In this document: positions 13,156-28,703 of the stretch, in pieces
Layout of the letters: every line of letters starts with the position of its first letter
Position numbering within the stretch: the stretch's first letter is position 1
Origin: Prevotella sp.
GTDB taxonomy: Bacteria; Bacteroidota; Bacteroidia; Bacteroidales; Bacteroidaceae
Length of the DNA: 33,077 nt
Assembly: GCA_017475265.1 (NCBI GenBank)
Contig: JAFVFY010000036.1
Coordinates: 1-33,077 of the forward strand
Direction: 5' to 3'
Translations under genes and position numbers: made by a program
The notes under the pieces: generated by a model
Seen by the model: the letters and a program-made list of their open reading frames with translations, nothing else
What the model was told of the DNA's origin: nothing
Databases searched by the model: none

Positions 13156-15558
13156 ATGAAACTATCGGAACTGAAGACTGGTGAGCATGGTGTCATCGTG
13201 AAGGTTCACGGGCACGGAGGCTTCCGCAAGCGCATCATTGAGATGGGCTTCGTGAGGGGAAAGCTCGTGGAGGTGTTGCTCAACGCCCCGCTGCACGATC
13301 CCGTGAAGTACAAGCTGATGGGCTACGAGGTGAGCCTGCGCCGCCAGGAGGCCGAGCTGATTGAAGTGGTGTCGGAGCAGTCGTGGAAGCAGGAGACGGC
13401 TTATGCGGCCGTGACGTTCGACGCCAGCGACCATCCTGACGACTACCTGCGCCACGAGGCCCTGCGCCAGCGCCGAACCATCAACGTGGCACTCATCGGC
13501 AATCCCAACTGCGGCAAGACCTCGCTCTTCAATTTTGCCAGCGGAGCACATGGGCATGTGGGTAACTACAGCGGCGTAACTGTCGATGCCAGCTCTGCCC
13601 ACGCGGAGATGTTCGGTTACGAGTTCAACCTCATCGACCTGCCTGGTACGTATTCTCTCTCGTGTTATTCGCCCGAGGAACTTTACGTGCGCCGCTACCT
13701 CACCGACCAGATGCCCGACGTGGTCATCAACGTCATCGATGCCTCGAACCTGGAGCGCAACCTCTACCTCACCACGCAGCTCATGGACATGGACTTGCGG
13801 GTGGTTTGTGCCCTCAACATGTACGACGAGTTTGAGCGTCGTGGCGACTACCTCGACACCGACAAGCTCTCCACGTTGCTGGGTATTCCGATGGTGCCCA
13901 CGTCGTTCAAGAATGGAATGGGCGTGAAAGATCTATTCCGCTCTGTCATACAGGTTTACGAAGGAAAGAGTCGCATAGCACGTCACCTGCATATCAACTA
14001 CGGACACGAGCTGGAGAACGGTATCGCCCGACTACAGAAATACCTGAAGCCCGATGAGAAGATTCACGAGCGATACTCCACCCGCTACCTGGCCATCAAG
14101 CTGCTCGAAGGCGACAGTAGCGTGGAACGGCTAGTGGTGGGTGACGCTTCGCTGTTGGAGGTGCGCGACCGAGCTGCCGCCCGTGTGCTGGAGGAGACGG
14201 GCGACGACGCCGAGACGGCCATCATGGACGCAAAGTACGGATTCATCAACGGGGCACTCACCGAGGCGGGCTTCACTACGGGCACCAAGGAGGACACCTA
14301 CCGCATGACCCACATCATAGACAACGTGCTGTCCAACCGCTTCGTGGGCTTCCCCATCTTCTTCGCCATCCTCTTCGTCATGTTCCAGACGACCTTCGCC
14401 CTCGGCCAGTACCCGATGGATTGGATTGAGGCTGGCGTCGACTGGCTGGGCGGTTGGTTGGAGCAGACGCTGCCTGGAGGCTCCGTGCGCTCCATGCTTG
14501 TCGATGGTGTCATTGGTGGCGTCGGTTCGGTCATCGTTTTCCTGCCCCAGATACTCATCCTCTACTTCTTCATATCGCTCATGGAGGACTCGGGCTATAT
14601 GGCCCGTGCGGCCTTCATCATGGACCGACTGATGCACAAGATGGGACTTCACGGCAAGTCGTTCATCCCGTTGGTGATGGGCTTCGGCTGCAACGTGCCT
14701 GCTGTTATGGCCACACGAACTATCGAGAGCCGACGCTCACGCCTCATCACGATGCTCATCCTGCCCTTCATGTCGTGCTCGGCACGCCTGCCGGTTTACA
14801 TCATGATTACGGGCACGTTCTTCGCTGCCCAATGGCGCTCGTGGGTGATGATTTCGCTCTACGCCATTGGCATCCTCCTCTCCGTCATAGTCAGCAATGT
14901 GCTCTCCTCATTCGTCATCCGAGGCGAGGACACACCCTTCGTGATGGAGCTGCCACCCTACCGCTGGCCCACGCCAAAGGCCATCGGACGACACACCTGG
15001 GAGAAGGGAAAGGAATACCTGAAGAAGATGGGCGGCATCATCCTCGTAGCATCTATCATCGTCTGGGCACTAGGATATTTCCCGCACGATGACAGCCTCA
15101 CCGTGGAGCAGCAGCAGGAGCAATCCTACATAGGTCGTATGGGCAAGACCATCGAACCAGTCTTCTCCCCTCAGGGCTTTAACTGGAAGCTCGACGTGAG
15201 CCTCATCGCCGGCATCGGAGCCAAGGAAATCGTGGCCTCCACCATTGGCGTGCTTTATAGTGGAACGGATGATGTCGAGGACCAACCCTCAACTCTCAAC
15301 TCTCAACCCTCAACTCTCAACCCTCAAATCTCAAATCTCAAATCTCAACCCTCAAATCTAAAAGCCGACCTCACCCCCTTGACCGCCTACTGCTTCCTAC
15401 TCTTCATCCTCATCTATTTCCCCTGTATCGCCACCATCGCGGCCATCAAGCACGAGACCGGCTCTTGGCGCTGGGCAACCGTAGCCGCCGTCTATACTAC
15501 CGTCCTCGCCTGGATTGTCAGCGCCCTCGTCCATCAGTTAGGTCAGTTGTTTTTGTGA
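13156..15558 (+). CDS. feoB: Fused FeoA-FeoB ferrous iron transporter
   Basis: This inner-membrane Fe(II) permease carries its FeoA partner as an N-terminal domain, the usual Bacteroidetes arrangement. With the start at 13156 (800 residues) FeoA covers about 1-72. The G domain follows with G1 GNPNCGKT (115-122), G2 threonine 142, G3 DLPG (161-164) and G4 NMYD (221-224). The membrane part starts near residue 390 and includes the two Gate regions (SGYMARAAF ... MGFGCNVPAV). An earlier in-frame ATG at 13126 would add ten residues, but FeoA domains begin MKLSEL. In the loop before the last two helices (about 710-735) the protein is encoded by eleven heptanucleotide repeats, a clear insertion. Confidence 0.95.
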   Translation: MKLSELKTGEHGVIVKVHGHGGFRKRIIEMGFVRGKLVEVLLNAPLHDPVKYKLMGYEVSLRRQEAELIEVVSEQSWKQETAYAAVTFDASDHPDDYLRHEALRQRRTINVALIGNPNCGKTSLFNFASGAHGHVGNYSGVTVDASSAHAEMFGYEFNLIDLPGTYSLSCYSPEELYVRRYLTDQMPDVVINVIDASNLERNLYLTTQLMDMDLRVVCALNMYDEFERRGDYLDTDKLSTLLGIPMVPTSFKNGMGVKDLFRSVIQVYEGKSRIARHLHINYGHELENGIARLQKYLKPDEKIHERYSTRYLAIKLLEGDSSVERLVVGDASLLEVRDRAAARVLEETGDDAETAIMDAKYGFINGALTEAGFTTGTKEDTYRMTHIIDNVLSNRFVGFPIFFAILFVMFQTTFALGQYPMDWIEAGVDWLGGWLEQTLPGGSVRSMLVDGVIGGVGSVIVFLPQILILYFFISLMEDSGYMARAAFIMDRLMHKMGLHGKSFIPLVMGFGCNVPAVMATRTIESRRSRLITMLILPFMSCSARLPVYIMITGTFFAAQWRSWVMISLYAIGILLSVIVSNVLSSFVIRGEDTPFVMELPPYRWPTPKAIGRHTWEKGKEYLKKMGGIILVASIIVWALGYFPHDDSLTVEQQQEQSYIGRMGKTIEPVFSPQGFNWKLDVSLIAGIGAKEIVASTIGVLYSGTDDVEDQPSTLNSQPSTLNPQISNLKSQPSNLKADLTPLTAYCFLLFILIYFPCIATIAAIKHETGSWRWATVAAVYTTVLAWIVSALVHQLGQLFL
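15283..15359 (+). repeat. Eleven-copy heptanucleotide array inside feoB
   Basis: Eleven back-to-back 7-mers (CAACCCT, CAACTCT or CAAATCT) cover 77 bp. Because 7 is not a multiple of 3, successive units are read in different frames, and gain or loss of one or two units would shift the frame and remove the last two FeoB membrane helices. The encoded peptide is polar (S, T, N, Q, L, P) and lies in a loop. Confidence 0.9.
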
Positions 15559-15854
15559 CAAAGACACCTGATTTGTTACAATAACAACCCCCATTTTCGG
15601 TTACAAGATTGCCCATTTGAGCACAAAACCCCTTCGAAATGAGGTCTTGGCATCAAAATTCCGAACGGCTGTTTATGCGCTAAGTACAGGAAAAAGCATC
15701 AGAACAAGGGGTTTTTGCCTGTTTTTTGAGGCTTTTTGAGCTGTTTTTTGACATCTTTCTGTCACATTTTGAAGGTTGTAATCTTGCCTCAAAGGTTTAC
15801 GGATTTTGTATCTTACTGTTTCTCAATCATTTAGAACAATCGTTAATGCCCAGG
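15559..15854. other. Noncoding region after feoAB with inverted repeat
   Basis: No convincing gene is present in the 564 bp between feoAB and the next start codon. AAAACCCCTT (15625-15634) and AAGGGGTTTT (15706-15715) are perfect inverted copies 71 bp apart, and a run of TTTTTTGAGGCTTTTTGAGC-like sequence follows. It may end feoAB transcription, or be part of a dispersed intergenic element. A 70-codon frame at 15726 has no protein-like features. Confidence 0.45.
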
Positions 15855-16002
15855 CGTTACAGTTACAGTTATTACAGTTGTTTTTTAAGGGGTATCATTT
15901 TCTCAAAAATGTGTTATAACTATCTAATTATTAATTAGTTATATTATTATAGTAGTATAATAGCCCCCCTTTTTTTCAACTGTAATAACTGTAACTGTAA
16001 CG
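15855..16002. repeat. Perfect 26-bp inverted repeat with ACAGTTAC micro-repeat arms
   Basis: The left arm (15855-15880, starting CGTTACAGTTACAG) and right arm (15977-16002) are exact reverse complements, 96 bp apart. The interior holds two further hairpins: AAGGGG (15887-15892) with CCCCTT (15965-15970), and ATAACTA with TAGTTAT around 15915-15941. The arms are themselves short tandem repeats. The design matches the element at 1-109. Confidence 0.85.
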
Positions 16003-16066
16003 AGGAACCCTTTTTGCTATACCAATCTTACGGTTAGAGACCTTCTGAAGGTTTTCTGGTAAAATG

Positions 16067-16098
16067 TTTGCTCATGTCCTTTTTATTGTGTAACTTTG
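16067..16098 (+). promoter_or_regulatory. Bacteroidetes-type promoter for the four-helix-bundle/GH51 genes
   Basis: TTTG at 16067-16070, 20 bp, then TAACTTTG at 16091-16098. The ATG at 16123 follows 24 bp later, so the leader is short. Confidence 0.7.
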
Positions 16099-16122
16099 CC
16101 CCCACTAATATCAGCAAGGTAT

Positions 16123-16869
16123 ATGGACGAGGATAAAGACTTCCTGCGGCAAGACAACAACTACCGGACATTGAAGGCATTTCAGAAGGCGGAGTGCATC
16201 TACGATGTGACATTCTACTTTGCCCACCAGTTCCTGCAGCCTGGTGACCGCACCATCGACCAGATGATTCAGGCTGCCCGCACCGGCAAACAGAACTTGG
16301 CCGAGGGGAACATCGACGGCATCACTTCGCGCGAGATGGAGCTGAAGCTGACGAATGTGAACCGCGCCTCGCTCCACGAGCTGCTGCTCGACTACGAGGA
16401 CTATCTACGAGTACGTGGCTTGGAGCAATGGAAGCAGGACGACCCGCGACTGCGCCAGACGCGCGCCTTCTGCAAGGCACACCTTGACTCCACCATCTAC
16501 CGCGAGAAGATTCGCGAGCGCTCCGACGAGACCATTGCCAATATTGCCATCACGCTCATCCACCAATGCGACGTGCTCATCCGCGGCCTCATAGAGTGGA
16601 TAAAGCAAGACTTCAAGCAGAATGGTGGTATCAAGGAGGAAATGTATCGGGCCCGCAAGGACTGGCAGAAGAGAAACGGAGCCTACGGGGCGATTCCTTA
16701 TGGGGGGAATGGGTTTAATGGGTTTAATGGGTCTAATGGGGGGAATGGGCCTAATGGGTTTAATGGGGCGTCGCGAAACAATGCGCAGCCGCCCATTAAA
16801 CCCAATCAACCCATCCAACCCATCAAAAATCCCAATCAACCCATTAAACCCAATGACAGCCGCAAATGA
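16123..16869 (+). CDS. Four helix bundle protein with four-helix-suffix domain and a repeat-encoded tail
   Basis: The first 190 or so residues match the small four-helix-bundle family related to proteins encoded in 23S rRNA intervening sequences (FQKAECIYDVTFYFAHQFL ... QMIQAARTGKQNLAEG), with the extra C-terminal 'suffix' region (YREKIRERSDETIANIAITLIHQCDVLIRGLI). The function is unknown. The start is the ATG at 16123; the open frame begins at a TTG (16096) that overlaps the promoter box. The last 50 residues are low-complexity GFN/GGN and PIK/PNQ tripeptides encoded by inverted 9-bp arrays (16702-16857). The stop overlaps the GH51 start (ATGA, 16866-16869). Confidence 0.75.
   Translation: MDEDKDFLRQDNNYRTLKAFQKAECIYDVTFYFAHQFLQPGDRTIDQMIQAARTGKQNLAEGNIDGITSREMELKLTNVNRASLHELLLDYEDYLRVRGLEQWKQDDPRLRQTRAFCKAHLDSTIYREKIRERSDETIANIAITLIHQCDVLIRGLIEWIKQDFKQNGGIKEEMYRARKDWQKRNGAYGAIPYGGNGFNGFNGSNGGNGPNGFNGASRNNAQPPIKPNQPIQPIKNPNQPIKPNDSRK
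16702..16857 (+). repeat. Inverted pair of 9-bp arrays at the 3' end of a coding sequence
   Basis: Seven 9-mers of the type GGGTTTAAT (16702-16764) are followed after about 27 bp by about seven copies of the reverse complement type CCCATTAAA/CCCAATCAA (16792-16857, with a 3-bp interruption at 16828-16830). GGGTTTAATGGG and CCCATTAAACCC pair exactly, so the mRNA can form a long hairpin. Because the unit is 9 bp, the left side encodes G-x-N tripeptides and the right side P-x-x tripeptides in frame. Confidence 0.9.
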
Positions 16870-19457
16870 ACAACTGGAGCAAGATTATCTTACCACAAAT
16901 ATCTATGAGACTAATATCAAGACTACTGACAGCCGTCATGCTGCTGATGATGGCTGCTACGGCCAAGGGCCAGAGCGACAAAGTGTTTATCTATTCGCCC
17001 GATGAGCGTGGCGGGCTGCGTATTGCCGTGCAGGAAGGCGACGGTTGGAAAGATTTGGGGCAGCTGTGCTCCAGCGACTACGGCACGTGGGGCGCAGAGA
17101 AGCGTATGTATGCCCCGTCGGTATGTAGGGCCAGCGACGGCACGTGGAGGCTGGTGTTCCAGGTGAACGACAGCTCGCCGGTCTTTGCGGCATCCTACAG
17201 CCGAGACCTCATTACTTGGCGACCGCAGGACTACCCCATCATGAGCACGAAGAAGTGCCTGAAGCCTGTGGTGCGTCCTGCCAAGGAGGGCTTCGAGGTC
17301 GTCTACGAGTCGGAGCAGGGACAGCGCCTCGTCACAGCTAGTTACGACTTCCGCCACTTCACTACTGGTGTATCGGCAAGGGAGGTGAAAGAGAGCGACA
17401 GGGCCGCTATACCTGTCTCGGAATACAAACATCATCTGGTCTTGAACGGCAAAGGACATGACGGGCAGATGTTTGAGGTGAGCGAACAAGAGCTCACCAC
17501 TATCCGCCAGCACTTCGAGCAGAGCGCCCGCGACGGGCAGATGAGCAATGAGCGCATGCACGACGACGGGAAAAATGAATTATTTAGAAAATTAAAGAAT
17601 GAAACCATCGAGGTCACGCTCACCATCGACACGACAAAGGAGAAGCCTATCAGCGACAAGCTCATCGGAATCTTCTTTGAGGACATCAGCTATGCCGCCG
17701 ACGGTGGTCTCTATGCCGAGCTGGTGCAGAACCGCGACTTTGAATACACGCCGAGAGACCATCGTGGATGGGATGCCACCACCGGCTGGCACTCGTCGCG
17801 CCCCATAGAGATTGACAATGGTCACCCTCTGCACCCCAATAATCCTCACTATGCCGTGCTGTTGCAGGACACGCTGTGGAACGAAGGCTGGGACGGCATC
17901 GTGGTCGAGAAGGGCAAGAAATACGACTTCTCGATGTATGTCTTTGCGGGCGGACAGAAGCAGGACTTCGTCATTCAGCTGGTGGGACAGGATGGTACCG
18001 TGCTGGCCCAGAGCAAGCTGAGCACTAGCGCCAGCGACTGGCAGCAGTATGCCACCGTGCTCATGGCCAAAGCCAGCGACACGAAAGCCCGGCTGGTCAT
18101 CATTCCGCAACGGGCGGCACGCGTGGGCGTCGACATGATTTCGCTCTTCCCGCAGGAGACGTTCAAGGGCCACAAGAACGGGCTACGTAAAGACCTGGCG
18201 CAGGTCATCGCCGACCTTCATCCGAAGTTCGTACGTTTCCCCGGAGGCTGTATGTCCCACGGTCAAGGGCTGGAGAATATCTACCACTGGAACCATACCA
18301 TAGGCTCGTTGCAGGAGCGCAAGCCCGACTTCAACATCTGGGGCTACCACCAGACACGCGGTCTGGGCTTCTACGAGTATTTCCAGTTCTGCGAGGACAT
18401 CGGAGCCGAGCCGCTTCCCGTGCTTGCCGCTGGAGTGCCCTGCCAGAACTCGGCAGCCAATGCACAGGGCGTGGGCGGTCAGCAGGGAGGAATACCGATG
18501 GACGAAATGCCCGCCTACATCGACGAGCTTTGTAACCTCATCGACTGGGCCAATGGCGACCCCGACACCAACGAATGGGCTGCCAAGCGTGCCGCTGCCG
18601 GCCATCCGAAGCCTTTTAACCTAAAGTACTTAGGCATTGGAAATGAGGATATTATCTCTACTGTTTTCGAGGAACGTTACGAGATGATTTGTCGTGCTAT
18701 CCGCGAGCGTCACCCGGAGATTAAGTTATGTGGAACCGTAGGACCGTTCCATACTCCCTCGGCCGACTACATCGAGGGCTGGGACCTCTGCCGACGCAAT
18801 CCTGACTTGCAGTACATGACCGATGAGCACTACTATGAGTCGACGGGTTGGTTCATCAACCACCGTGACTACTACGACAAATACGACCGTCAGGGAACCA
18901 AGGTCTACTTAGGAGAGTGGGCGGCCTCTACCAATGTGAAGCGTCCCAACGTGGAGACAGCCCTTGCCGAGGCCCTCTACCTGACCGATATTGAGCGCAA
19001 CGGCGACGTCGTGGAGATGACCTCCTACGCCCCTATGCTCAGCAAGGACGGCCACTCCAACTGGAACCCCGACATGATTTATTTCTCGAACACCAGCATC
19101 CGCACCACTCCGGCCTACGAGATTCAGCGGCTGTTCTCTGTCTATGGTGGCGACCGCTATGTCAGTTCCCAACTCTCAACTGTTCAAGGGAATTTGCAAT
19201 CCCCGAACACCCAACTCACTCGTCGTCTTGGCGCCAGCCTAGTGCGCGACTCCAAGACCGGCAAGCGATACCTGAAGCTCATCAATGCCCTGCCGACGCC
19301 CATCCACATCACCGTCGAGGGCATCCAGATTCCCGCTACCTTGAAATGTCAGCAGTTCACCGGAGCCATCGACGACCAGAAGGCCAAGGTCGAGGAGATA
19401 GAAACCTCCGCTCCCACCACGCTCCCGCCATATTCCCTCCGCGTCATTGAGCTTTGA
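16866..19457 (+). CDS. Secreted alpha-L-arabinofuranosidase (GH51) with N-terminal GH43-like region
   Basis: GH51 enzymes release terminal arabinofuranose from arabinan or arabinoxylan. The 863-residue protein has a signal peptide; the ATG at 16866 overlaps the previous stop, but an internal ATG at 16905 would give a more classical 22-residue leader. Residues 37-165 look like part of a GH43-type beta-propeller (MYAPSVCRASDGTWRLVF). GH51 starts near 262 (ISDKLIGIFFEDISYAADGG), with a carbohydrate-binding-like insert at about 300-430. Catalytic residues are Glu594 (IGNEDI, acid/base) and Glu684 (YLGEWAAS, nucleophile). A repeat-derived insertion (SSQLSTVQGNLQSPNTQ) lies near residues 766-782. 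The propeller region is too short for an active GH43. Confidence 0.9.
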   Translation: MNNWSKIILPQISMRLISRLLTAVMLLMMAATAKGQSDKVFIYSPDERGGLRIAVQEGDGWKDLGQLCSSDYGTWGAEKRMYAPSVCRASDGTWRLVFQVNDSSPVFAASYSRDLITWRPQDYPIMSTKKCLKPVVRPAKEGFEVVYESEQGQRLVTASYDFRHFTTGVSAREVKESDRAAIPVSEYKHHLVLNGKGHDGQMFEVSEQELTTIRQHFEQSARDGQMSNERMHDDGKNELFRKLKNETIEVTLTIDTTKEKPISDKLIGIFFEDISYAADGGLYAELVQNRDFEYTPRDHRGWDATTGWHSSRPIEIDNGHPLHPNNPHYAVLLQDTLWNEGWDGIVVEKGKKYDFSMYVFAGGQKQDFVIQLVGQDGTVLAQSKLSTSASDWQQYATVLMAKASDTKARLVIIPQRAARVGVDMISLFPQETFKGHKNGLRKDLAQVIADLHPKFVRFPGGCMSHGQGLENIYHWNHTIGSLQERKPDFNIWGYHQTRGLGFYEYFQFCEDIGAEPLPVLAAGVPCQNSAANAQGVGGQQGGIPMDEMPAYIDELCNLIDWANGDPDTNEWAAKRAAAGHPKPFNLKYLGIGNEDIISTVFEERYEMICRAIRERHPEIKLCGTVGPFHTPSADYIEGWDLCRRNPDLQYMTDEHYYESTGWFINHRDYYDKYDRQGTKVYLGEWAASTNVKRPNVETALAEALYLTDIERNGDVVEMTSYAPMLSKDGHSNWNPDMIYFSNTSIRTTPAYEIQRLFSVYGGDRYVSSQLSTVQGNLQSPNTQLTRRLGASLVRDSKTGKRYLKLINALPTPIHITVEGIQIPATLKCQQFTGAIDDQKAKVEEIETSAPTTLPPYSLRVIEL
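19171..19204 (+). repeat. Heptamer plus 17-bp palindrome inside the GH51 gene
   Basis: Two CAAC-type heptamer-like units (AACTCTCAACTGTT) run into CAAGGGAATTTGCAATCCCC. The 17-mer at 19188-19204 differs by one base from GGGGATTTGCAATCCCC found twice in the TonB receptor gene. It is read here as GNLQSP. Confidence 0.75.
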
Positions 19458-19460
19458 GTT

Positions 19461-19630
19461 AATCCGTTAAATCCGTAAAATCCGTTGTTAATGTAATCCG
19501 TTTAATTCGTAAAATTCGTTGTTAAAATAATCCGTTTAATTCGTAAAATCCGTTGTTAAGGTAATCCGTTTAATTCGTAAAATCCGTTGTTAAAGCAATT
19601 CGTTTAATTCGTAAAATTCGTTGTTTAAAG
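19461..19630 (+). repeat. Five 34-bp tandem repeats directly upstream of coaD
   Basis: Five units of exactly 34 bp (starting 19461, 19495, 19529, 19563 and 19597) fill the gap between the GH51 stop and the coaD start codon, ending 4 bp before the ATG. Each unit is itself made of three 9-bp AATYCGTNN blocks plus a TTAA-containing 7-mer, so the array has two levels of repetition. No TAnnTTTG promoter is visible within it, so coaD may be read from the GH51 promoter, with the array in the transcript. Confidence 0.85.
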
Positions 19631-19634
19631 TATT

Positions 19635-20099
19635 ATGGATAGAATCGGAGTTTTTGTGGGGACCTTCAACCCCTTCACCGTGGGTCACGACAGCATCGTC
19701 CGTCGTGCCCTCCCTCTCTTCGACCGTCTTGTCATTGGTGTTGTCGGCGACCACGTTCAGAAGTCCGGCCTGCCCTCAGCTGAGGAGCGTGTAGAGGCCA
19801 TTGCCAGCGTTTATGCCGACGAGCCTCATGTCATCGTAAAACCCTATTACGGCCTCGCCGTAGACTTCGCCCGCGAACAGGGTGCCCGCTTCATCGTCAA
19901 GGGTGTCCGCTCGGTAAAGGACTTCGAATACGAGCGCGAGCAGGCCGACATCAACCGCCTCATCACCAATGGCGAAATAGAAACCATCTTCCTCTACGCC
20001 GAGCCCCAGTTGAGCAGCATCTCCTCCACGATGGTGCGCGAGCTGCAACATTTCGGCGTAGACACATCACCATTCTGCAACATAACCAAAAACAAGTGA
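19635..20099 (+). CDS. coaD: Phosphopantetheine adenylyltransferase
   Basis: CoaD makes dephospho-CoA from 4'-phosphopantetheine and ATP. The nucleotidyltransferase motif GTFNPFTVGHDSIVRRA is at the N-terminus; KGVRSVKDFEYE and SSISSTMVREL are the other signature segments. Length (154 residues) is usual. It lies immediately after the 34-bp repeats and just before ybeY, which begins at or next to its stop codon. Confidence 0.95.
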   Translation: MDRIGVFVGTFNPFTVGHDSIVRRALPLFDRLVIGVVGDHVQKSGLPSAEERVEAIASVYADEPHVIVKPYYGLAVDFAREQGARFIVKGVRSVKDFEYEREQADINRLITNGEIETIFLYAEPQLSSISSTMVRELQHFGVDTSPFCNITKNK

Positions 20100-20101
20100 C
20101 T

Positions 20102-20512
20102 ATGATCACCTACAATTGTGAAAACGTGAAGATGCCTGCCATCCGTCGGCGTGACACGTCGGCTTGGATTAAGCGGGTGGCAGAGAGCTATGGAAAGCGA
20201 GTGAGCGAGGTGGGCTACCTCTTCTGCGACGACGAGAAGATACTGGAGGTGAACAAAGAGTACCTGCAGCACGACTACTACACGGACATCATCACCTTCG
20301 ACTATTGCGAGGACGATGTGCTCAATGGCGACATCGTCATCTCTCTCGATACCGTGCACTCTAATGCGGAAAAGCTGGGGAAGGACTACGACGAGGAGCT
20401 TCATCGCGTCATCATTCATGGAATCCTCCACCTCTGCGGCCTGAACGACAAAGGGCCAGGCGAGCGGGAGCAGATGGAGGCTGCGGAGAATCAGGCCTTG
20501 GCGATGAGATAG
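20102..20512 (+). CDS. ybeY: Endoribonuclease YbeY (rRNA maturation factor)
   Basis: YbeY is a metal-dependent RNase needed for 16S rRNA 3' maturation. The signature HGILHLCGLNDKGPGE is present near the C-terminus. In the classical motif (HGxLHLxGYDH) a third histidine binds the metal; here that place is Asp, which I recall as usual in Bacteroidetes, so it is not a sign of decay. The ATG at 20102 is preferred; a GTG at 20096 overlapping the coaD stop is the alternative. The 3' end overlaps the convergent GT8 gene by 22 bp. Confidence 0.92.
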   Translation: MITYNCENVKMPAIRRRDTSAWIKRVAESYGKRVSEVGYLFCDDEKILEVNKEYLQHDYYTDIITFDYCEDDVLNGDIVISLDTVHSNAEKLGKDYDEELHRVIIHGILHLCGLNDKGPGEREQMEAAENQALAMR

Positions 20513-21453
20513 CGCCTGAGTCTTTGCTTTATTGTGGAGACATGCTTCCGCGCCCGGTATGTCATGACGGCCCATCCTCGGGTGATGGCGTTCTGGGGAT
20601 GCAGGTGGCGGAAGTGCTGGGTCTGTCTGGCGTAATGATAATATAAGTTGTATAGCGGGTGTACGCAGTTGTGCTGCCAGGGCTTGGGGTGCGATGCATA
20701 GTGCAATATCGTGGGGTCAGCCTTATGCTCCAGGGCGTTACACTTATCGGCAGCATAATCGTTTACCACCTGTCCGTCTATCCGGTCATATTGGAGGGAG
20801 TAGTCAGGGTCGTAGACGTTGGATGTCATGTTCCATTGTGCCGCAAGGTGAAGGCATTGCTTGTAGAGCACGGCGTTGAGCGTGTCCTGGTCGTGGTATT
20901 TTATGCTGTTATAGTTCTTGGCGATGTAGTCCATGAGCTGCCGGCTCACGTCGTATTGGCGGAAATAATCAACGTTTATCAGCGTCACCCCGGCGTTGAA
21001 GTAACCATACTCCACGGGGTAGCCCAATCGGATGGCCTCGTGTCCGAATCCCACTTGCGCCACAGCAGCAATAGCATAGCCTGTGAGGTCGGTGTTCCAA
21101 AGAGTAGCAACGGAATGGTTGACCACGATGTCGCAGTCGAGGTAGAGCACCTTGTCCACTTCCTTTGGCAGCAAGTCGGGAATGAGCAGCCGATAGTAGG
21201 TGGCGCGGCTGATGTGTGCCAGCTCGGCTCCAGACGGCATAGGGAAGCGGTCGATGACCGTAGGGTCGACATTGCAGAAATGCACTTTGCCGCCACGTGC
21301 CGTCACCTCTTCGCTGATGATTTGCTCGTTCTCGGGAGTCAGGCCTTCGGTAAGCAAAAAGACGGTCACATCATCATTGTTCATCAGCAAGGAGACGAGC
21401 ATCACGCAGCAATGTTGCACAAAATTATCATCGGTAGCACAAACTATGACCAT
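20491..21453 (-). CDS. Glycosyltransferase family 8 protein
   Basis: GT8 enzymes are retaining transferases that move galactose, glucose or related sugars from UDP-sugars, often to lipopolysaccharide or surface glycans. The protein (320 residues) has the N-terminal IVCATDDNFVQHCCVMLVSL strand-helix, the metal-binding DCD (106-108, in LYLDCDIVV), and the late ILHYASHPKPW motif, all typical. It stands alone on the minus strand with its own promoter box at 21497-21490. The acceptor is unknown. It overlaps ybeY tail-to-tail. Confidence 0.9.
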   Translation of the reverse strand: MVIVCATDDNFVQHCCVMLVSLLMNNDDVTVFLLTEGLTPENEQIISEEVTARGGKVHFCNVDPTVIDRFPMPSGAELAHISRATYYRLLIPDLLPKEVDKVLYLDCDIVVNHSVATLWNTDLTGYAIAAVAQVGFGHEAIRLGYPVEYGYFNAGVTLINVDYFRQYDVSRQLMDYIAKNYNSIKYHDQDTLNAVLYKQCLHLAAQWNMTSNVYDPDYSLQYDRIDGQVVNDYAADKCNALEHKADPTILHYASHPKPWQHNCVHPLYNLYYHYARQTQHFRHLHPQNAITRGWAVMTYRARKHVSTIKQRLRRYLIAKA

Positions 21454-21489
21454 GGATCATTAACCATTTAACATCGAACATAGAGGGTG

Positions 21490-21497
21490 CAAAAATA
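21490..21497 (-). promoter_or_regulatory. -7 promoter box for the GT8 gene
   Basis: TATTTTTG on the minus strand, about 37 bp before the start codon, in the same local sequence context as the phosphatase promoter at 3954-3947. Confidence 0.5.
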
Positions 21498-21552
21498 CGA
21501 AAAAGCAGGGTAACGGCCAAATTTTTCTGGCGAATAGTTTTTAAAGTCATGC

Positions 21553-21568
21553 TATTTTTGTAATTTTG
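21553..21568 (+). promoter_or_regulatory. -7 promoter boxes for tamL
   Basis: Two adjacent candidates, TATTTTTG (21553-21560) and TAATTTTG (21561-21568), lie 20-28 bp before the ATG at 21588. They face away from the GT8 promoter. Confidence 0.5.
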
Positions 21569-21587
21569 CACGCAAAATCCAAATGTG

Positions 21588-24047
21588 ATGGTTTCATTAA
21601 GAGCTGTGCGTTGCCTTTTGCCAGGCTTTTTGCTGTCGGTTATGCTTCTTTCGTGTTCTACGACGAAGAACATTCCCGACGGCGACCAGCTGTTTATTGG
21701 CCTGACGAAGATAGAGTATAAGCAGGACACCGTTCAGCAGCAACATGAGCAGGACTCCGTCCGGCAGCAACGTGAGCACTTCGTCAAGACGCAGGAGGAG
21801 GTGGAGGCAGCCCTTGCCACAGCTCCCAATGGCGCTTTCTTCGGCAGCAGCTACTACCGCACGCCGTTCCCCTACAGCCTGTGGATATGGAATTGGGCAG
21901 GCGACAGCAGCGGCAAGCTGAAGAAATGGATGAAGAAGTCGTTTGGCAAGGCTCCCGTGCTGATGAGCCAGGTGAACCCCGCCCTGCGTGCCTCGGTGGC
22001 CCAGTCGGTATTGCATAAGAACGGTTACATGCACGGCACGGTGTCCTATACCGAGGTGCCCCAGCGCAATCCGAAGAAGATGAAGATAGGCTACACGGTC
22101 ACCCCCGGTCCGCTCTTCCTCGTCGACTCGCTGAGCTACCAGAACTTTCCGGCTCCCATGCGGCTGCTTATCGACTCTACCATTACTGAGGCGAATATCG
22201 TCAAGGGCTCGCCCTTCAGCGTGGGCAATCTCGATGCAGAGCGCACCAGGCTTTCGCAGCTCATGCGTAACAATGGCTATTACTACTATCAGCCCAGCTA
22301 TGCCTCATTCCTTGCTGATACCTTTGCTGTGGCCAATCATGTTAACCTGCGGCTGCAACTTGCCGACTCCTTGCCAGAGCAGGCCCTCCACCCTTGGTAT
22401 ATCGGTACCACGACGATGCAGATGCGGCGCACTCCGCGTGAACAGCTTACCGACAGCACAGGCCGCAGTTTCCTGAAGATACGCTTCAACGGCAAGCGGC
22501 CTCCCATGCGCCCCAGGGTGGTGCTTCGCAACATGAGGCTGCGTCCGCGAAGTCTTTTCAGCTATGACAACTACCAGGAGTCCATGCAGAAGGTGAACGC
22601 CACGGGTGTATTCTCCTCCGTAGACTTCCAATTCAGGCCCCGACTCGGCACAGACACCCTCGACCTGACCCTTAACTGCGTCTTCGACCAGCCCTACGAC
22701 TTCTATGTGGAGACAAGCTTTGTGAACCGCACCATAGGCCGTCGCGGCCCAGAGTTGAAGGTGGGTCTTGTGCGCCGTAATGCCTTCCGTGGAGGTGAGC
22801 GTCTCGACGTGAACTTGCACGGAGCCTACGAGTGGCAGAGTGGTGGCAATAACTCCTACCAATATGGTATCGATGCCAGCGTGGAGTTTCCCCGGATATT
22901 GTTCCCCTTCCTTAATGATGAGCCGCGACGTCGTCGTGTAGAGCGGGATAGCACAGGAACAGCTCCTACTGGTGAGAGACGCCGTCGTCGCCGGCGTTAC
23001 TACTCCACGCCGTGGACGATAGCGAAGTTGTCGACGGACATCGTACGACGCCCCAACTACTACAAGATGCACATCGTTGCAGGTGAGTGGACCTACCGAT
23101 GGCAGAAATCGGAGAACACTCAGCATGAGTTCTCGCCGCTTACCGTGAAGTACCAGTACATGAACAGCCATACCGATGAGCTTGAAGCTCTACTGGCGGA
23201 AAACATGTACCTTAGTGCTACCATGAGCGACCGCTTCATCCCGAAGATGCGCTACACCTATGTCTACACCAGCCCCCGGAAACACCATAACCCGTTGCGC
23301 TGGGAGACAAGCCTCGAGGAGGCTGGCAACGTGACGTCGCTCTACTTCATGGCCAAGGGTGACAGTTGGTCGGAGAAGGACAAAACGTTGTTCAAGACAC
23401 CCTACGCCCAGTTCCTGCGTCTGGAGACTGACCTCACCAAGACATGGACGCTCTCCCAGACGTCGCAGCTAGTAGGTCATATCAATGCGGGCTACCTCCA
23501 CAGCTACGGAAACTCTAGTGAGGCTCCCTTCAGCGAGAAGTTCTATGTGGGAGGTGCCAACAGCATACGTGCCTTCCCCGTGAGAAGCATCGGCCCGGGT
23601 GCCTTCCCCGGCTTCACCAGTTCCGGCAACCAGTTTGCCTACGTGATGTGCAACGGAAACCTCAAGCTGGTGATGAATCTGGAGTATCGCCAGCGTCTGG
23701 TGGGCAATCTTTATGGAACCCTTTTCCTGGATGTGGGCAATGTGTGGGACTCTGCCGACTGGACATTAAGCGAGGAAGATTTTGAAGGCGATGATGACAT
23801 TATTGATGATATCATCGACTGGAATGAAGCTGTCAGTAAGATGAGTTTTAAGCCCCGCAACCTCTTCCGGGAGCTGGCTACGGGCACAGGCATTGGTCTG
23901 CGCTATGACCTCGACTTCCTGATTGTCAGAGTTGACTGGGGTTTCGGTTTCCATGTGCCCTACGATACAGGAAAGAGTGGATACTTCAACATCCCACGGT
24001 TCAAGGACATGCACACCCTTCACCTTGCCGTCGGCTATCCGTTCTGA
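21588..24047 (+). CDS. BamA/TamA-family outer-membrane lipoprotein (TamL-like)
   Basis: The 819-residue protein has a lipoprotein signal with lipid-attachment Cys23 (VMLLSC) followed by STTKNIPDGDQLF, a typical start for Bacteroidetes TamL proteins. POTRA-like repeats fill the N-terminal half (for example YTVTPGPLFLVDSLSY). A 16-strand Omp85 barrel follows, with the lid-loop motif GGANSIRAFPVRSIGPG (Arg661 at the place of the conserved VRGF arginine) and a final strand ending in aromatic Phe. It probably helps assemble outer-membrane proteins or move lipids to the outer membrane. ATG at 21588 is chosen over an overlapping GTG at 21585. The TonB receptor gene follows 17 bp later. Confidence 0.88.
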   Translation: MVSLRAVRCLLPGFLLSVMLLSCSTTKNIPDGDQLFIGLTKIEYKQDTVQQQHEQDSVRQQREHFVKTQEEVEAALATAPNGAFFGSSYYRTPFPYSLWIWNWAGDSSGKLKKWMKKSFGKAPVLMSQVNPALRASVAQSVLHKNGYMHGTVSYTEVPQRNPKKMKIGYTVTPGPLFLVDSLSYQNFPAPMRLLIDSTITEANIVKGSPFSVGNLDAERTRLSQLMRNNGYYYYQPSYASFLADTFAVANHVNLRLQLADSLPEQALHPWYIGTTTMQMRRTPREQLTDSTGRSFLKIRFNGKRPPMRPRVVLRNMRLRPRSLFSYDNYQESMQKVNATGVFSSVDFQFRPRLGTDTLDLTLNCVFDQPYDFYVETSFVNRTIGRRGPELKVGLVRRNAFRGGERLDVNLHGAYEWQSGGNNSYQYGIDASVEFPRILFPFLNDEPRRRRVERDSTGTAPTGERRRRRRRYYSTPWTIAKLSTDIVRRPNYYKMHIVAGEWTYRWQKSENTQHEFSPLTVKYQYMNSHTDELEALLAENMYLSATMSDRFIPKMRYTYVYTSPRKHHNPLRWETSLEEAGNVTSLYFMAKGDSWSEKDKTLFKTPYAQFLRLETDLTKTWTLSQTSQLVGHINAGYLHSYGNSSEAPFSEKFYVGGANSIRAFPVRSIGPGAFPGFTSSGNQFAYVMCNGNLKLVMNLEYRQRLVGNLYGTLFLDVGNVWDSADWTLSEEDFEGDDDIIDDIIDWNEAVSKMSFKPRNLFRELATGTGIGLRYDLDFLIVRVDWGFGFHVPYDTGKSGYFNIPRFKDMHTLHLAVGYPF

Positions 24048-24064
24048 TATATCTTTATTATTTT

Positions 24065-26212
24065 ATGTACAAACCATTGTTCTTGAAGCGCGAGATGCTC
24101 GTGTTCCGCCAATTCCAGCGGAAGGGCTACTCGCTCTTTGCATGTCTGGGTCGCGAGGTCATTATCTCCGTGCTCAGCGTCGCCACGCTCTCGGCCACTA
24201 AGGCTGCTGGCATCAGCGATGAGGTGTGGCGTGTAGACTCCGCCGGACATGTCAGGGAGGTGTTTCTTAGTGACGTTGGCGTCACTGGCTCCCGAGCGCC
24301 GCTGGCTACGAGCCAGGCGGCTCGCATGGTAACTGTACTGAGCCGTGAGGACATTGCGCAGGCGCCAGTACAAAGTGTTAACGATTTGCTGAAGTACGCC
24401 GTCGGCGTCGATGTGCGACAACGAGGAGCCCTTGGCTCCCAGACCGACGTCTCCATCCGTGGCGGCACGCAGGAGCAAATCACCGTACTGCTTAACGGCG
24501 TCAACATTGGCGACCCGCAGACGGGGCATAATACCCTCGACCTGCCCTGTCAGCTCGAAGATATTGTGCGTATAGAAGTGCTCGAAGGCCCTGCCGGACG
24601 GGTCTACGGAACGTCCTCGCTCGTTGGAGCCATCAATATTGTTACGACAAGCCTCCCCCAACCCCTCCAAAAGAGGGGAGAAGTGAAGCTGGAGGCTGGT
24701 TCCTACGGCTATGCCAAGGCTGCCTTTACAGCAAGCCTCCCCCAATGGCGGGAGGTTGGAGGGGGCCTCTCTGCAAGCTATTCCCGTTCCGACGGTTACT
24801 CTCGCTCCCGTTCAGGCAACCTGAATACTGGCTATAGTGGTTCAAAGGCTTTCTATCAGGGAGCCTACGACACCCGTGGCCTTCGTGTAAACTGGCATCT
24901 GGGACTTTCAGACCGAGGGTGGGGGAGTGGCACCTTCTATGCTACGCCCCGTTGGCAGGCTGACGAGCAGTATGAGCACACCACGAAGCTCTTCGCCGAT
25001 GTGCAAGCAGACCTTTCTGCTGGAGGGGATTTGCAATCCCCGACCTTCCACCTACAGCCCGCCATCTACTGGCAGCAGCATCGCGACCGCTACGAGGGCT
25101 ACCACGACCGTCCCGACCTCATGCCCTATAATTATAATAGGTGTGACGTCTACGGCGTAAAGGTCAACGGCTATTTCGACTCTCCGCTGGGGCGTACCGC
25201 CATTGGTGCCGAGCTTCGCAACGAGGACCTTGTCAGCGGCAACCTTGGCGAGCCGCTTTTCCGTACCCATCACATCAACGGTACCGACCGTGACTATACC
25301 CTCGGCATTAACCGCACGAACATCTCCGCTCACCTCGAGCACAACGTCCTGCTGCGCCGTCTTACCGTCTCGGCAGGCTTTGTGGCAGCGAAGAGTTCTT
25401 GGAGCGACATGAACATGACCCTCTATCCTGGCATCGATCTCAGTTATCGTATCCCGTTCAACGTCCAACGTTCAAGGGGACTTGCAAACGGCTCAAGGGG
25501 ATTTGCAATCCCCGTCACGCTGAAACTTTTCGCTGGCTGGAACACTTCCCTGCGGTTGCCCACGTTCACCGAGATGTACTACAAGCTGCAAGGCTATGCC
25601 GCCGACCCTCACCTGAAGCCCGAGGAGATGCAGGCCTTGGAGGTAGGCGCACAGCTAGCCACGCCTCATGTCGAAGCCAAGACCACACTCTTCCATCATC
25701 ACGGCCGCAACATGATTGACTGGGTGATGGACACCTCCCTGGGCGATGCCGCCGTATGGCAGAGCGTCAACCACACGCGTATCAACACTACAGGACTCGA
25801 AATCTCGCTTTCCACACAGTTCTCCCCTCTTACCGCTCATCTCTCCTACACCTATCTTTCTCAGGACAAACACCTGTCGGATGGCCTCGTGTCGCAATAT
25901 GCCCTGGAGTATCTTCGCCACAAGCTCGTGGCCACCATTCAGGCACCCCTCTGGCGTAACCTTAGTGGCCGACTCGGATTACGCTGGCAAGACCGCAAAG
26001 GCACCTACACAACCTTCTCTGGTGACCTGTGTCCCTACCGTCCCTACGCCCTCATGGATGCCCGTCTGTCCTGGGTGCAATCCCGTATCACCCTCTATGC
26101 CGAGGCCAGCAACCTCCTTAACAACCGCTCCTACGTAGACTTCGGCAACGTGCCACAGCCTGGCCGCTGGCTTGTGGTTGGATTCAGCTGGCGATACGTT
26201 AATCTTCCATAA
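24065..26212 (+). CDS. TonB-dependent outer-membrane receptor (BtuB-like)
   Basis: This 715-residue receptor has an unusually long basic leader (KREMLVFRQFQRKGYSLFACLGREVIISVLSV split over about residues 8-40) ending in a signal-peptide-like segment, a style seen in Bacteroidetes BtuB-like receptors. A plug domain (about 70-180: VSIRGG ... VLLNGVNIGDPQTG ... VYGTSSLVGAINIVT) and a 22-strand barrel follow. The ligand cannot be named. The gene is 17 bp after tamL, probably co-transcribed. It carries at least four in-frame repeat-derived insertions in extracellular or periplasmic loops: two C5AA/G5 hairpin elements (24651-24766) and two palindrome elements (25025-25041, 25463-25513). Confidence 0.9.
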   Translation: MYKPLFLKREMLVFRQFQRKGYSLFACLGREVIISVLSVATLSATKAAGISDEVWRVDSAGHVREVFLSDVGVTGSRAPLATSQAARMVTVLSREDIAQAPVQSVNDLLKYAVGVDVRQRGALGSQTDVSIRGGTQEQITVLLNGVNIGDPQTGHNTLDLPCQLEDIVRIEVLEGPAGRVYGTSSLVGAINIVTTSLPQPLQKRGEVKLEAGSYGYAKAAFTASLPQWREVGGGLSASYSRSDGYSRSRSGNLNTGYSGSKAFYQGAYDTRGLRVNWHLGLSDRGWGSGTFYATPRWQADEQYEHTTKLFADVQADLSAGGDLQSPTFHLQPAIYWQQHRDRYEGYHDRPDLMPYNYNRCDVYGVKVNGYFDSPLGRTAIGAELRNEDLVSGNLGEPLFRTHHINGTDRDYTLGINRTNISAHLEHNVLLRRLTVSAGFVAAKSSWSDMNMTLYPGIDLSYRIPFNVQRSRGLANGSRGFAIPVTLKLFAGWNTSLRLPTFTEMYYKLQGYAADPHLKPEEMQALEVGAQLATPHVEAKTTLFHHHGRNMIDWVMDTSLGDAAVWQSVNHTRINTTGLEISLSTQFSPLTAHLSYTYLSQDKHLSDGLVSQYALEYLRHKLVATIQAPLWRNLSGRLGLRWQDRKGTYTTFSGDLCPYRPYALMDARLSWVQSRITLYAEASNLLNNRSYVDFGNVPQPGRWLVVGFSWRYVNLP
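24651..24766 (+). repeat. Two GCCTCCCCCAA hairpin elements inside the TonB receptor gene
   Basis: The first copy (24651-24680) has CCCCTC and GAGGGG as stem arms around CAAAA. The second (24735-24766) has GCCTCCCCCAA and TTGGAGGGGGC as imperfect inverted arms. Both are read as SLPQ followed by variable residues. A related C-rich/G-rich hairpin lies in the intergenic region at 4905-4925. Confidence 0.65.
25025..25041 (+). repeat. 17-bp palindrome GGGGATTTGCAATCCCC, copy in TonB receptor gene
   Basis: The imperfect palindrome is preceded by a short G-rich run and is read in frame as GDLQSP, the same frame as the GH51 copy at 19188-19204. Confidence 0.8.
25463..25513 (+). repeat. Compound repeat: heptamers, half palindrome, full 17-bp palindrome
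   Basis: CAACGTC-CAACGTT heptamers lead into CAAGGGGACTTGCAAACGG (a half or decayed palindrome), then CTCAAGGGGATTTGCAATCCCC with an exact 17-mer at 25497-25513. Here the 17-mer is read as RGFAIP, a different frame from the copies at 25025 and 19188. Confidence 0.8.
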
Positions 26213-26215
26213 TCG

Positions 26216-26247
26216 TTTCGTGGTTACAAGCTTTTTTCGTACTTTTG
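26216..26247 (+). promoter_or_regulatory. Promoter for GH28 gene
   Basis: TTTC at 26216-26219 (one mismatch to TTTG), 20 bp, then TACTTTTG at 26240-26247. The GH28 ATG is 43 bp downstream. Confidence 0.55.
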
Positions 26248-26289
26248 CCGAAAAATAGGATTACTAACTATCACTAAACTATACCCCCG

Positions 26290-27636
26290 ATGAAACAGAC
26301 AATGATTCTGGCCCTGGCGCTGCTCATGGCGTGCACGATGGCCTACGGAAAGAAGAAAGTAGAGAAACAGGAGCTATGGCCCAACGGCGAGCCAATGGCC
26401 GAGTGGTTTCGTGACACGACGAAAGTGAAGGTGCAAGACCTGGGACGGCAGTATGTGCTGACCAGCTACGGTGTGCGCCAGGGCACCACCGACATCCAGA
26501 CAAAGGCTATCCAGGCCGTCATCGACAAGGCTGCCAGCGAGGGCGGTGGCGTCATTGTAGTGCCGAAGGGGACGTTCTACTCAGGTAGTCTCTTCTTCAA
26601 GCAGGGCACGCATCTGCACCTGCAGGAGGGCGCGGTGCTGAAAGGCTCAGACCGCATACGCGACTTCGAGATTCGTGAGACACGCATAGAGGGGCAGACG
26701 TGCAAGTACTTCGTGGCCCTGGTGAACGCCGACGGGCTGGATGGCTTCACCATCACCGGAAAGGGTACCATCGACGGCAACGGAGAGTCGTACTGGGAGC
26801 AGTTCTGGATTCGCCGTCAATGGAATCGCCAATGCACGAACAAGGACGAGCAGCGCCCACGACTGACATACATCTCCAATTGCAAGAACGTCACCGTGCA
26901 GGACGTGCGGCTCATCAACTCGCCCTTCTGGACGAACCACGTGTACCGCTCAGACCATGTGCGCTACCTCGACCTCTACATCTACTCTTCGACGCAGGAC
27001 ATCAAGGGTCCGTCGACCGATGCCGTCGACATCGATGTGTGTCACGACGTGGTGGTGCGCGGATGCTACATGAACGTCAACGACGACGCCGTGGTGCTGA
27101 AGGGTGGCAAGGGTACCTTCGCCGACCAGGCGCCGGAGAATGGACCCTGCTATAACATATTGGTGGAGAATTGCCATTACGGCACCGTTCATGGTTGTAT
27201 GACGCTCGGCTCGGAGTCGGTACACGACTGGAACGTCATCATGCGTCGTTGTCAGGTGGACGATGCCCATCGTGTTCTCTGGCTGAAAATGCGACCCGAT
27301 ACGCCACAACACTATGAGTATGTCACCGTAGACGAGATGAAGGGCAACACCAAGTCGTTCCTCGTGTGCAAGCCTTGGACGCAATTCTATAACAAAGAGG
27401 AACGTGAGGATATGCCACTCTCGCAATGTAACAATATCACGCTGAGCAACATACACATGGATTGTTCGACCTTTTTCGATGTAGACGGCTCTGACAAGTA
27501 CGCCCTGAAGGACTTCACTTACGAGAACATCGACGTCACGGACAAGGCCAAGGTAAAGGCCTTCTCAGTAAACCCCGTTGTGAACCTCCAGTTGAAGAAC
27601 GTCACCATCAATGGCGAGAAGATAGAGCAACCGTGA
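26290..27636 (+). CDS. Secreted GH28 family polygalacturonase-like enzyme
   Basis: The 448-residue protein has a signal peptide (about 1-20) and a right-handed parallel beta-helix of the GH28 type. Recognisable segments are GGGVIVVPKGTFYSGSLFF near the N-terminus and the active-site set STDAVDID (Asp244, Asp247), NDDAV (Asp265, Asp266) and TVHG (His301). In classical polygalacturonases the motifs are NTD, DD and GHG, so this is a divergent member that may act on another uronate- or rhamnose-containing pectin linkage; the exact substrate is not decided by the sequence. The ribD gene follows 26 bp later and may share the transcript although functionally unrelated. Confidence 0.85.
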   Translation: MKQTMILALALLMACTMAYGKKKVEKQELWPNGEPMAEWFRDTTKVKVQDLGRQYVLTSYGVRQGTTDIQTKAIQAVIDKAASEGGGVIVVPKGTFYSGSLFFKQGTHLHLQEGAVLKGSDRIRDFEIRETRIEGQTCKYFVALVNADGLDGFTITGKGTIDGNGESYWEQFWIRRQWNRQCTNKDEQRPRLTYISNCKNVTVQDVRLINSPFWTNHVYRSDHVRYLDLYIYSSTQDIKGPSTDAVDIDVCHDVVVRGCYMNVNDDAVVLKGGKGTFADQAPENGPCYNILVENCHYGTVHGCMTLGSESVHDWNVIMRRCQVDDAHRVLWLKMRPDTPQHYEYVTVDEMKGNTKSFLVCKPWTQFYNKEEREDMPLSQCNNITLSNIHMDCSTFFDVDGSDKYALKDFTYENIDVTDKAKVKAFSVNPVVNLQLKNVTINGEKIEQP

Positions 27637-27662
27637 TGATTTAGTAGCTGACCTGATGAGAA

Positions 27663-28703
27663 ATGAATACAGACGAGAAGTTCATGCGCCGTTGCCTTCA
27701 ACTGGCACAAAACGGCCGCAACGGAGCACGGCCTAACCCCATGGTAGGGGCGGTGATAGTAGTTCCCTGGGGGCAGGGGGAGGCCCGCATCATCGGTGAG
27801 GGCTATCATGTACGTTGTGGGGAGGGTCATGCCGAGGTGAATGCCTTCGCTTCTGTTAGGCCAGAGGACGAGCACCTGCTCCCTGAGGCCACGATGTACG
27901 TTAGCCTGGAACCCTGTTCCCACTACGGCAAGACGCCGCCCTGCGCCGACCTTATCATCAAGAAAGGAGTGCGCCGCGTGGTGGTGGGGTGTCAGGATGA
28001 TTTCTCCAAGGTGCAGGGACGTGGCATACAGAAGCTGCGCGAGGCAGGTATCTGCGTCACCGTCGGCGTTCTGGAGCAGGAGTGCCGATGGCTTAACCGC
28101 CGGTTCTTCACCTTTCATCGAGAGCATAGGCCTTATATCATCCTGAAATGGGCACAGACGGCCAACGGCTTTATCGATGATGACGGTCGGGCGCTTAAAA
28201 TATCCTCAGACTTCACCCAGATGCTCTGCCACAAGCTTCGCTCCGAGGCTGATGCCATCGCCGTGGGCCGCATCACCAACGATCGGGAGCACCCACAACT
28301 GAATGTCCGCCACTGGTCTACGTACAATGGCCAACGTTCAATGGTCAATGTTCAATGGCCAACGTTCAACGTTCAATGTTCAATGTTCAATGTTCAATGG
28401 TCAATGGTCAATGGTCAATGGTCAATGGCCCGCCAGCCCCGCCGCATCGTCCTGAGTCATGACCATCCTCTCGACCTCGAGGGCCTTTATGCCGACAACG
28501 TGCAGTCGCTCATCGTGGAGGGCGGTGCCAAGACACTTCATTCATTCCTCGATAGTAACCTCTGGGATGAGCTCCGCGTAGAGACAAATCTCGCCCTCAC
28601 CGTCCCCAAGGGAACCCCTGCTCCACTTATTCCTCCAAGCGCCAAGGTCATTGGCAAAGAAATCTACGGAGACAACATCATCACACATTATTATAATATG
28701 TAA
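27663..28703 (+). CDS. ribD: Riboflavin biosynthesis deaminase/reductase RibD
   Basis: RibD carries out the deamination and then the side-chain reduction steps of riboflavin synthesis. The N-terminal deaminase has the zinc site His56-Ala-Glu58, Cys85 and Cys94 (EPCSHYGKTPPC). The reductase half begins near residue 155 (PYIILKWAQTANGFI) and has the late VEGGAKTLHSFLD motif. Between them, residues about 221-256 are encoded by fifteen heptanucleotide repeats and read as NVQ/SMV/W-rich sequence foreign to the family. The insertion is 105 bp, a multiple of three, so the frame is intact; whether the reductase still works is not known. Confidence 0.92.
   Translation: MNTDEKFMRRCLQLAQNGRNGARPNPMVGAVIVVPWGQGEARIIGEGYHVRCGEGHAEVNAFASVRPEDEHLLPEATMYVSLEPCSHYGKTPPCADLIIKKGVRRVVVGCQDDFSKVQGRGIQKLREAGICVTVGVLEQECRWLNRRFFTFHREHRPYIILKWAQTANGFIDDDGRALKISSDFTQMLCHKLRSEADAIAVGRITNDREHPQLNVRHWSTYNGQRSMVNVQWPTFNVQCSMFNVQWSMVNGQWSMARQPRRIVLSHDHPLDLEGLYADNVQSLIVEGGAKTLHSFLDSNLWDELRVETNLALTVPKGTPAPLIPPSAKVIGKEIYGDNIITHYYNM
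28325..28429 (+). repeat. Fifteen-copy heptanucleotide array inside ribD
   Basis: Fifteen back-to-back CAAYGKY 7-mers (CAATGGC, CAACGTT, CAATGGT, CAATGTT) cover 105 bp. Runs of identical units (three CAATGTT, four CAATGGT) are good substrates for slipped-strand mispairing. A one- or two-unit change would shift the frame and remove the rest of the reductase domain. Confidence 0.92.

Follow-up and report, generated by a model that had tools for sequence, protein, structure and literature searches.

How tandem arrays of 7-bp units came to lie within two unrelated genes is the question raised by a 33,077-nucleotide stretch of a Prevotella sp. genome, hereafter the window, which corresponds to positions 1-33077 of contig C54 in an assembly of 4.75 Mb in 135 contigs. 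The two genes encode a FeoB-like ferrous iron transporter and the bifunctional enzyme RibD. A previous interpretation of the DNA letters (the sequence-only reading) counted 11 back-to-back CAANNNN units in feoB and 15 in ribD, and proposed that they originated from a spreading or seeding mechanism acting on DNA and not from protein function. Both counts were borne out, and the arrays and their host genes are placed as follows.

13126..15558, forward strand: feoB-like ferrous iron transporter gene of 810 amino acids (aa) with the array in frame, an open reading frame (ORF) matched in each of 60 related genomes.

15283..15359, forward strand: feoB heptamer array, 11 CAA-anchored units in a CAACCCT/CAACTCT/CAAATCT mosaic, encoding the peptide QPSTLNSQPSTLNPQISNLKSQPSNLK (CAANNNN units matched at 15283-15355).

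27663..28703, forward strand: ribD, bifunctional deaminase/reductase gene of 346 aa with the array in frame, an ORF matched by solved RibD structures.

28314..28429, forward strand: ribD heptamer array, 15 exact CAA units at 28325-28425 together with two degenerate 5′ units (TGGTCTA and CGTACAA).

The first part of the answer is that these arrays are not isolated. When the pattern was counted across the whole genome, a check which the same reading had proposed, five consecutive CAANNNN units were matched 688 times, against 107 times for the reversed pattern, which served as the pattern control for whole genomes. Within the window, three-unit matches numbered 23, whereas 100 dinucleotide shuffles averaged 0.43 and never exceeded 5. 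The phylum and family surveys and the chain counts in sister species described below are also whole-genome counts; unless such a count is named, the numbers for this genome refer to a 969 kb sample, whose contigs were partly picked for having matches, so that densities are biased upward, and whose genes were called with our own dicodon script (coding fraction 0.89). A period scan of this sample, in which arrays of at least five units with enough constant columns were sought at each period and one Markov-shuffled copy was the control, revealed that period 7 exceeded every other short period by a wide margin, with 141 arrays and none in the shuffled copy. Period 9 was the second most frequent class with 19 arrays, followed by periods 11 (11 arrays), 5 (7 arrays, and 2 in the shuffled copy), 8 (5 arrays), 12 (2 arrays), and 4 and 6 (1 array each), with no array at periods 10 and 13. 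After merging, 92 of 124 arrays were of the CAA type, and the unit columns consisted of C (.93), A (.98), A (.98), a fourth column in which G is nearly absent, two unconstrained columns, and T (.81). Chains of at least four TCAA units were found at period 7 and its double only, among ten periods tested. The core of the family is YCAANNN, and the feoB and ribD arrays belong to it. An assembly artefact was considered and is unlikely, since the arrays lie within intact ORFs and are repeated in many independent genomes. It was also observed that contig C11 (L207, 6801 bases) stops no more than 2 bp from a heptamer array at 6713-6799, and arrays of this kind may break assemblies.

The second part concerns where the arrays lie. 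Among 102 CAA chains, 65 were within genes in sense orientation, 4 within genes in antisense, 16 across a gene end, and 17 intergenic, which places 65 of the 69 in-gene arrays in the sense orientation. The rarity of antisense arrays follows from the core itself, as TCAA reads TTGA on the opposite strand and three consecutive units give TGA in all frames. The host proteins, of which 20 were searched out of 53 array-bearing genes, included a UvrD-like helicase, RsmH/MraW, Dxs, two Mur ligases, RelA/SpoT, a pseudouridine synthase, an FGGY kinase, and three glycosidases, and they are functionally unrelated to one another.

A mostly genic, sense-oriented distribution is what would be expected if the heptapeptide repeats were selected as useful flexible linkers or interaction segments. 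The ribD array agrees with this, as it occupies a low-confidence segment, disordered in the structure model, in which residues 204-256 had a predicted local distance difference test score (pLDDT) below 50, against a mean of 73 and a predicted template modelling score (pTM) of 0.73. However, the hosts share no function, matching arrays occur outside genes (the 17 intergenic chains, and the 16 that are only partly genic), and the peptides are missing in orthologues. The array segment was present in none of 49 aligned RibD orthologues (L052 was left out of the alignment for its length), and the array was absent from all 27 FeoB orthologues aligned across the loop that holds it, a loop that varies in length among them, and from 17 of 18 aligned RsmH orthologues. 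The nearest RibD orthologue (L098) is shorter by 35 aa, that is, 105 bp or 15 x 7, and the next two by 36 aa; the nearest named relatives of this RibD are metagenome genomes of rumen Prevotella. A second feoB-like gene is found in the same assembly, on contig C52 (L218:112-1727), with 81% aa identity over residues 341-810; this copy is without the array of the window feoB and harbors a separate heptamer array around residue 343, where its reading frame is interrupted.

Within the arrays, variation showed no effect of codon position, which also stands against selection on the protein. For arrays within genes, departures from the array consensus in the variable half of the unit amounted to 15.2% at the first codon position, 12.3% at the second, and 15.5% at the third, and array variation is independent of the reading frame. 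Low variation of the core (1.5, 2.6, and 3.1%) was dropped as evidence, because it is partly built in by finding the chains via CAA. Furthermore, units of in-gene arrays are also present in non-coding DNA. These results altogether argue strongly that the arrays arise at the level of DNA and do not reflect protein function, as the sequence-only reading had held, and that selection for useful peptides is an extremely improbable explanation.

The reading frame nevertheless filters what survives, and this filter is seen in the spacing of identical units. Within genes, identical units peaked at lag 3 (21 bp), with 128 of 237 against a shuffled mean of 86, and at lag 6 too, whereas outside genes the peak was at lag 2 (14 bp), with 56 of 123 against a shuffled mean of 37; none of 1000 unit-order shuffles was as high for any of these peaks. 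The lag-2 peak may be largely due to arrays of alternating CAATAAC and CAATAAA units. The same spacing bears on whether the arrays are contingency loci, kept for phase variation since 7 is not a multiple of 3 and the gain or loss of a unit would switch a gene off or on. The interrupted frame at the array of the C52 feoB copy is what such switching would produce, but the 21-bp steps in genes are a sign of purifying selection for the frame, arrays often lie deep within genes, and hosts such as rsmH, dxs, and the Mur ligases are unsuited to being switched off, all of which makes phase variation a very unlikely reason for their maintenance.

How the arrays grow could be followed in one gene. The RsmH orthologue of genome G608 carries the same array with three units, and that of the present genome is 42 bp, or 6 units, longer; in-place growth by whole units is thereby demonstrated for rsmH, in this one case. 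Ordinary replication slippage on chance seeds would produce such growth: the polymerase would favour 7-nt slips, any TCAANNNTCAA pair would expand, and the core would be a local sequence preference, without any need for copies from elsewhere in the genome. In many bacteria, long simple repeats are most often heptanucleotides, and the footprint of the polymerase has been suggested as the cause (Mrazek 2007, cited in the available parts of PMC4679880 and PMC4692102), and chains of exactly two TCAA units exceeded the reversed control in 14 of 16 whole genomes.

However, the distribution of chain lengths does not fit this scheme well. Unit-by-unit growth from chance pairs should leave pairs in excess, yet two-unit CAA pairs at period 7 sit at the background given by the same anchor at periods 8, 10, and 11: 203 against 197-219 in sense, 148 against 128-146 in antisense, and 102 against 97-110 outside genes. 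The excess begins with three units (17 sense chains against 1-5 at the same three periods) and is no smaller for four and five units (16 and 19 sense chains against 0-1), the longer chains being far over background outside genes too, so that three-unit chains show no greater excess than four- and five-unit ones, inside or outside genes. Moreover, short arrays are already mosaic, with more than one unit type in 50 of 60 arrays of four or five CAA units.

Closely related species provided a further argument against slippage from seeds. In the whole genomes of sister species G394 and G540, two-unit TCAA chains numbered 174 and 225 and no chain reached three units, compared with 405 chains of three or more TCAA units in the present genome; a supply of seeds is thus not sufficient for arrays to form. 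Both sisters have MutS, and a loss of mismatch repair through MutS was rejected as the cause, as MutS domain I was detected in 39 of the 42 genomes examined in the family, array-rich (19/21) and array-poor (20/21) alike. Slippage as the whole explanation is possible but rather unlikely. In a wider survey, at least one five-unit match was present in 210 of 395 genomes of the phylum sample and in 92 of 201 genomes of the family, with numbers ranging from 0 to several hundred even inside one genus, and the common units differed from genome to genome (the stretches of other genomes read for unit comparison were partly chosen at known CAA matches). In a viral collection, a near-consensus array pattern was observed in two contigs (L333:8780-8810 and L334:6168-6198).

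In two other genomes, the arrays took a different form. Stretches of G588 and G596 contained arrays as inverted pairs, TTGA units followed by TCAA units, and TTGA motifs upstream of arrays numbered 48 and 46 against backgrounds of 5.7 and 9.3, with 5 and 6 downstream. The G588 pairs whose arms lie 38-40 bp apart are located as follows.

L257:3347-3437: inverted arrays.

L258:8309-8407: inverted arrays.

L260:15219-15318 and L260:17848-17943: two sets of inverted arrays.

They lie outside any spanning ORF of 100 codons, some have a related core, and with their strong hairpins they look like a palindromic repeat family. The arrays could accordingly be viewed as a hairpin mobile element resembling miniature inverted-repeat transposable elements (MITEs) or repetitive extragenic palindromic (REP) sequences, in which a short core would be flanked by arrays as terminal inverted repeats, and arrays found singly would be decayed or incomplete copies. 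The 28-base core of one G588 pair had four matches, in both orientations, in 72 kb of that genome, and three pairs folded beyond their shuffles (z of -8.6, -3.9, and -11.6). In the present genome, an upstream inverted arm was found in 7 of 92 arrays and a downstream arm in none, with 0.2 expected; one of the armed arrays lies in rsmH (fold z of -5.5). Conversely, 85 of the 92 arrays are armless, the two arrays of the window have no inverted arm and fold no better than shuffles (z of +1.5 and -0.2), and the upstream excess of TTGA in G551 is weak (12 against 5.7, with 7 downstream). Terminal inverted repeats around a core, as in MITEs and Rickettsia palindromic elements, are lacking both in the window and in those 85 arrays, and a mobile element of this type is a doubtful source for the family as a whole.

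An account that we somewhat favour brings these observations together in a dispersed YCAANNN family with arrival in blocks, growth in place, a frame filter, and tolerated peptides. A new site would receive a short block of about four or five units, mosaic from the outset and presumably copied out of another array through a lineage-specific process. Arrays would then lengthen or shorten in place through tandem duplication of whole units. Within genes, the survivors are those in sense orientation, free of stops, and altered in 21-bp (7-codon) steps, and outside genes 14-bp steps predominate. The encoded heptapeptides (QWSMVNG, QPSTLNS, and similar) would be tolerated loop insertions with no selected sequence. 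Seeding from elsewhere is the best, if unproven, account of the size threshold and of the shared units. As for the spreading originally proposed, its DNA-level part stood, and the spread itself is indirectly supported by the shared units, the mosaics, the pairs at background level, and the array-free sisters with seeds.

Several observations weigh against this account. First, ordered unit words were shared between loci only modestly above shuffles: 30 words of k=4 against a shuffle mean of 19.3, reached by 2 of 200 shuffles, and 110 words of k=3 against 90.9, reached by 10 of 200. Second, TCAA pairs exceeded their controls in sense (33 against 6-12), in antisense (18 against 6-10), and outside genes (16 against 2-15). 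Fragments of interrupted or longer CAA chains made up 39 of these 67 pairs, and the isolated pairs left (10, 7, and 11) are at background, which speaks against slippage as well. The whole-genome excess of chains of exactly two units (291 against 193 for the reversed pattern in the present genome, G000, where this control is itself raised by CAACT units, and 86 against 39 in G588) leaves room for some step-by-step growth. Third, the reversed control nearly equals the pattern in G531 and G563 and is richer than the CAA pattern in several other Bacteroidota. A phylum-wide CAA core was rejected, the control being equal or richer in many genomes.

Fourth, the sequence-only reading had expected orthologues without arrays to show clean junctions, which held for ribD but not in general. 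Among the 53 array-bearing genes, 13 had an orthologue match in the DNA examined and 10 of these were comparable (12 arrays, best-scoring orthologues), 3 yielding no comparison. The net length difference was a multiple of 7 bp in 3 of the 12 arrays, where chance gives 1 or 2 and the orthologues compared are just 65-87% identical, and most insertion junctions are not clean, with changes in the surrounding loop residues too. At the loop of the dxs array, the dxs orthologue of G620 (L301) carries, by eye, a CTAG-containing 9-bp repeat, and this loop may be a general repeat-tolerant site. Finally, a rare TTCACCA unit, the third from the core, occurs in the arm of four loci among the 7 armed arrays. 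At all four, the changed base falls in a TCA codon of the called gene that would otherwise be TGA, which suggests either that an arm compatible with coding was copied or that selection led to convergence. The shared arm was weakened as proof of copying, since the variant avoids an in-frame TGA at every one of these loci.

Smaller runs and other repeats were also found in the window. The presence of shorter pieces of the same pattern in the TonB-receptor and GH51 genes had been reported, and the former was confirmed as a three-unit run.

25459..25475, forward strand: three-unit mini-array CAACGTC CAACGTT CAA in the TonB-receptor gene.

The GH51 gene has a single CAACTCT at 19170 and no three-unit run, and this piece is at chance level, because in the sample even pairs of CAA units occur at background frequency. 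Further tandem repeats lie at 13024-13104, 117-204, and 19460-19632, with 22-bp units and a 34-bp array, and period 22 was also prominent in the period spectrum. The 34-bp array directly precedes an ORF starting at 19635, which resembles coaD. At 16708-16767, a 9-bp repeat encodes the GFN-rich tail that ends an ORF of 257 aa.

Repeats with comparable features have been described, as far as the available parts of the reports show. Long simple heptanucleotide repeats in prokaryotes are phylogenetically scattered, and 7-nt slippage has been proposed for them (Mrazek 2007, cited in PMC4679880 and PMC4692102). The present arrays belong with this class as dispersed tandem 7-nt units beyond chance, with whole-unit copy-number change in place in rsmH, and share with it the dominance of heptamers and the scattered occurrence. 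They differ in that coding repeats there favour units in multiples of three, whereas here 7-mers with a fixed CAA and a variable rest are mostly genic. TAACTGA direct repeats occur in Beggiatoaceae, Cyanobacteria, and some Bacteroidetes (MacGregor 2015, PMC4679880), and are likewise dispersed arrays, sporadic among species, for which a horizontal or mobile origin was considered. However, they have one fixed sequence and lie mostly just upstream of starts in their main genome, with few and mostly peripheral coding cases, while the present unit is different and variable, and 65 of the 102 chains are genic and sense. GGGNATC and GGGGAYT heptamers were found in Xanthomonas and Nostoc (Rehm et al. 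2015, PMC4692102). Those of Xanthomonas, with nearly 200 arrays per genome, also combine a fixed core with variable positions, mixed units, and a preference for about four units. The Xanthomonas and Nostoc heptamers are G-quadruplex-forming, enriched in non-coding DNA, and depleted on coding strands, whereas the CAA/TTG core has no G tracts and the window arrays, which are not G-rich, fold like shuffles (no quadruplex model was used). Rickettsia palindromic elements insert in frame in many unrelated genes and are tolerated by the proteins (review PMC10969869), as are the present arrays in being in-frame repeat DNA in many unrelated genes, but they are ~150 bp long and encode a conserved peptide, and here most arrays have a single orientation and variable length. 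In the available parts of MacGregor 2015 and Rehm et al. 2015, arrays are mainly intergenic. Among the matches listed in the open-licence literature, no description was found of heptamer arrays in Prevotella coding genes, nor of a CAA-anchored, variable, gene-dominant family filtered in 21-bp steps. Heptanucleotide arrays are a recognised class, and their coding-dominant in-frame form looks new.

A genus that includes both array-bearing and array-free species, all of them with two-unit seeds and MutS, makes the cause mappable by comparative genomics. With blocks of four or five units present here without G tracts, it may be asked whether a quadruplex is required to explain why G-rich heptamers prefer four units. 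That essential enzymes absorb repeated 7-codon insertions has a bearing on protein evolution, genome annotation, and assembly. A tentative, and on balance unlikely, extension is that a lineage-specific trans-acting system, gained or lost between sister species, writes YCAANNN blocks into new sites, including the interiors of essential genes, and may copy hairpin-armed intergenic elements such as those of G588 and G596, selection for frame leaving 7-codon insertions. If true, such a trans-acting writer would be a natural means of producing in-frame insertions of peptides within housekeeping enzymes.

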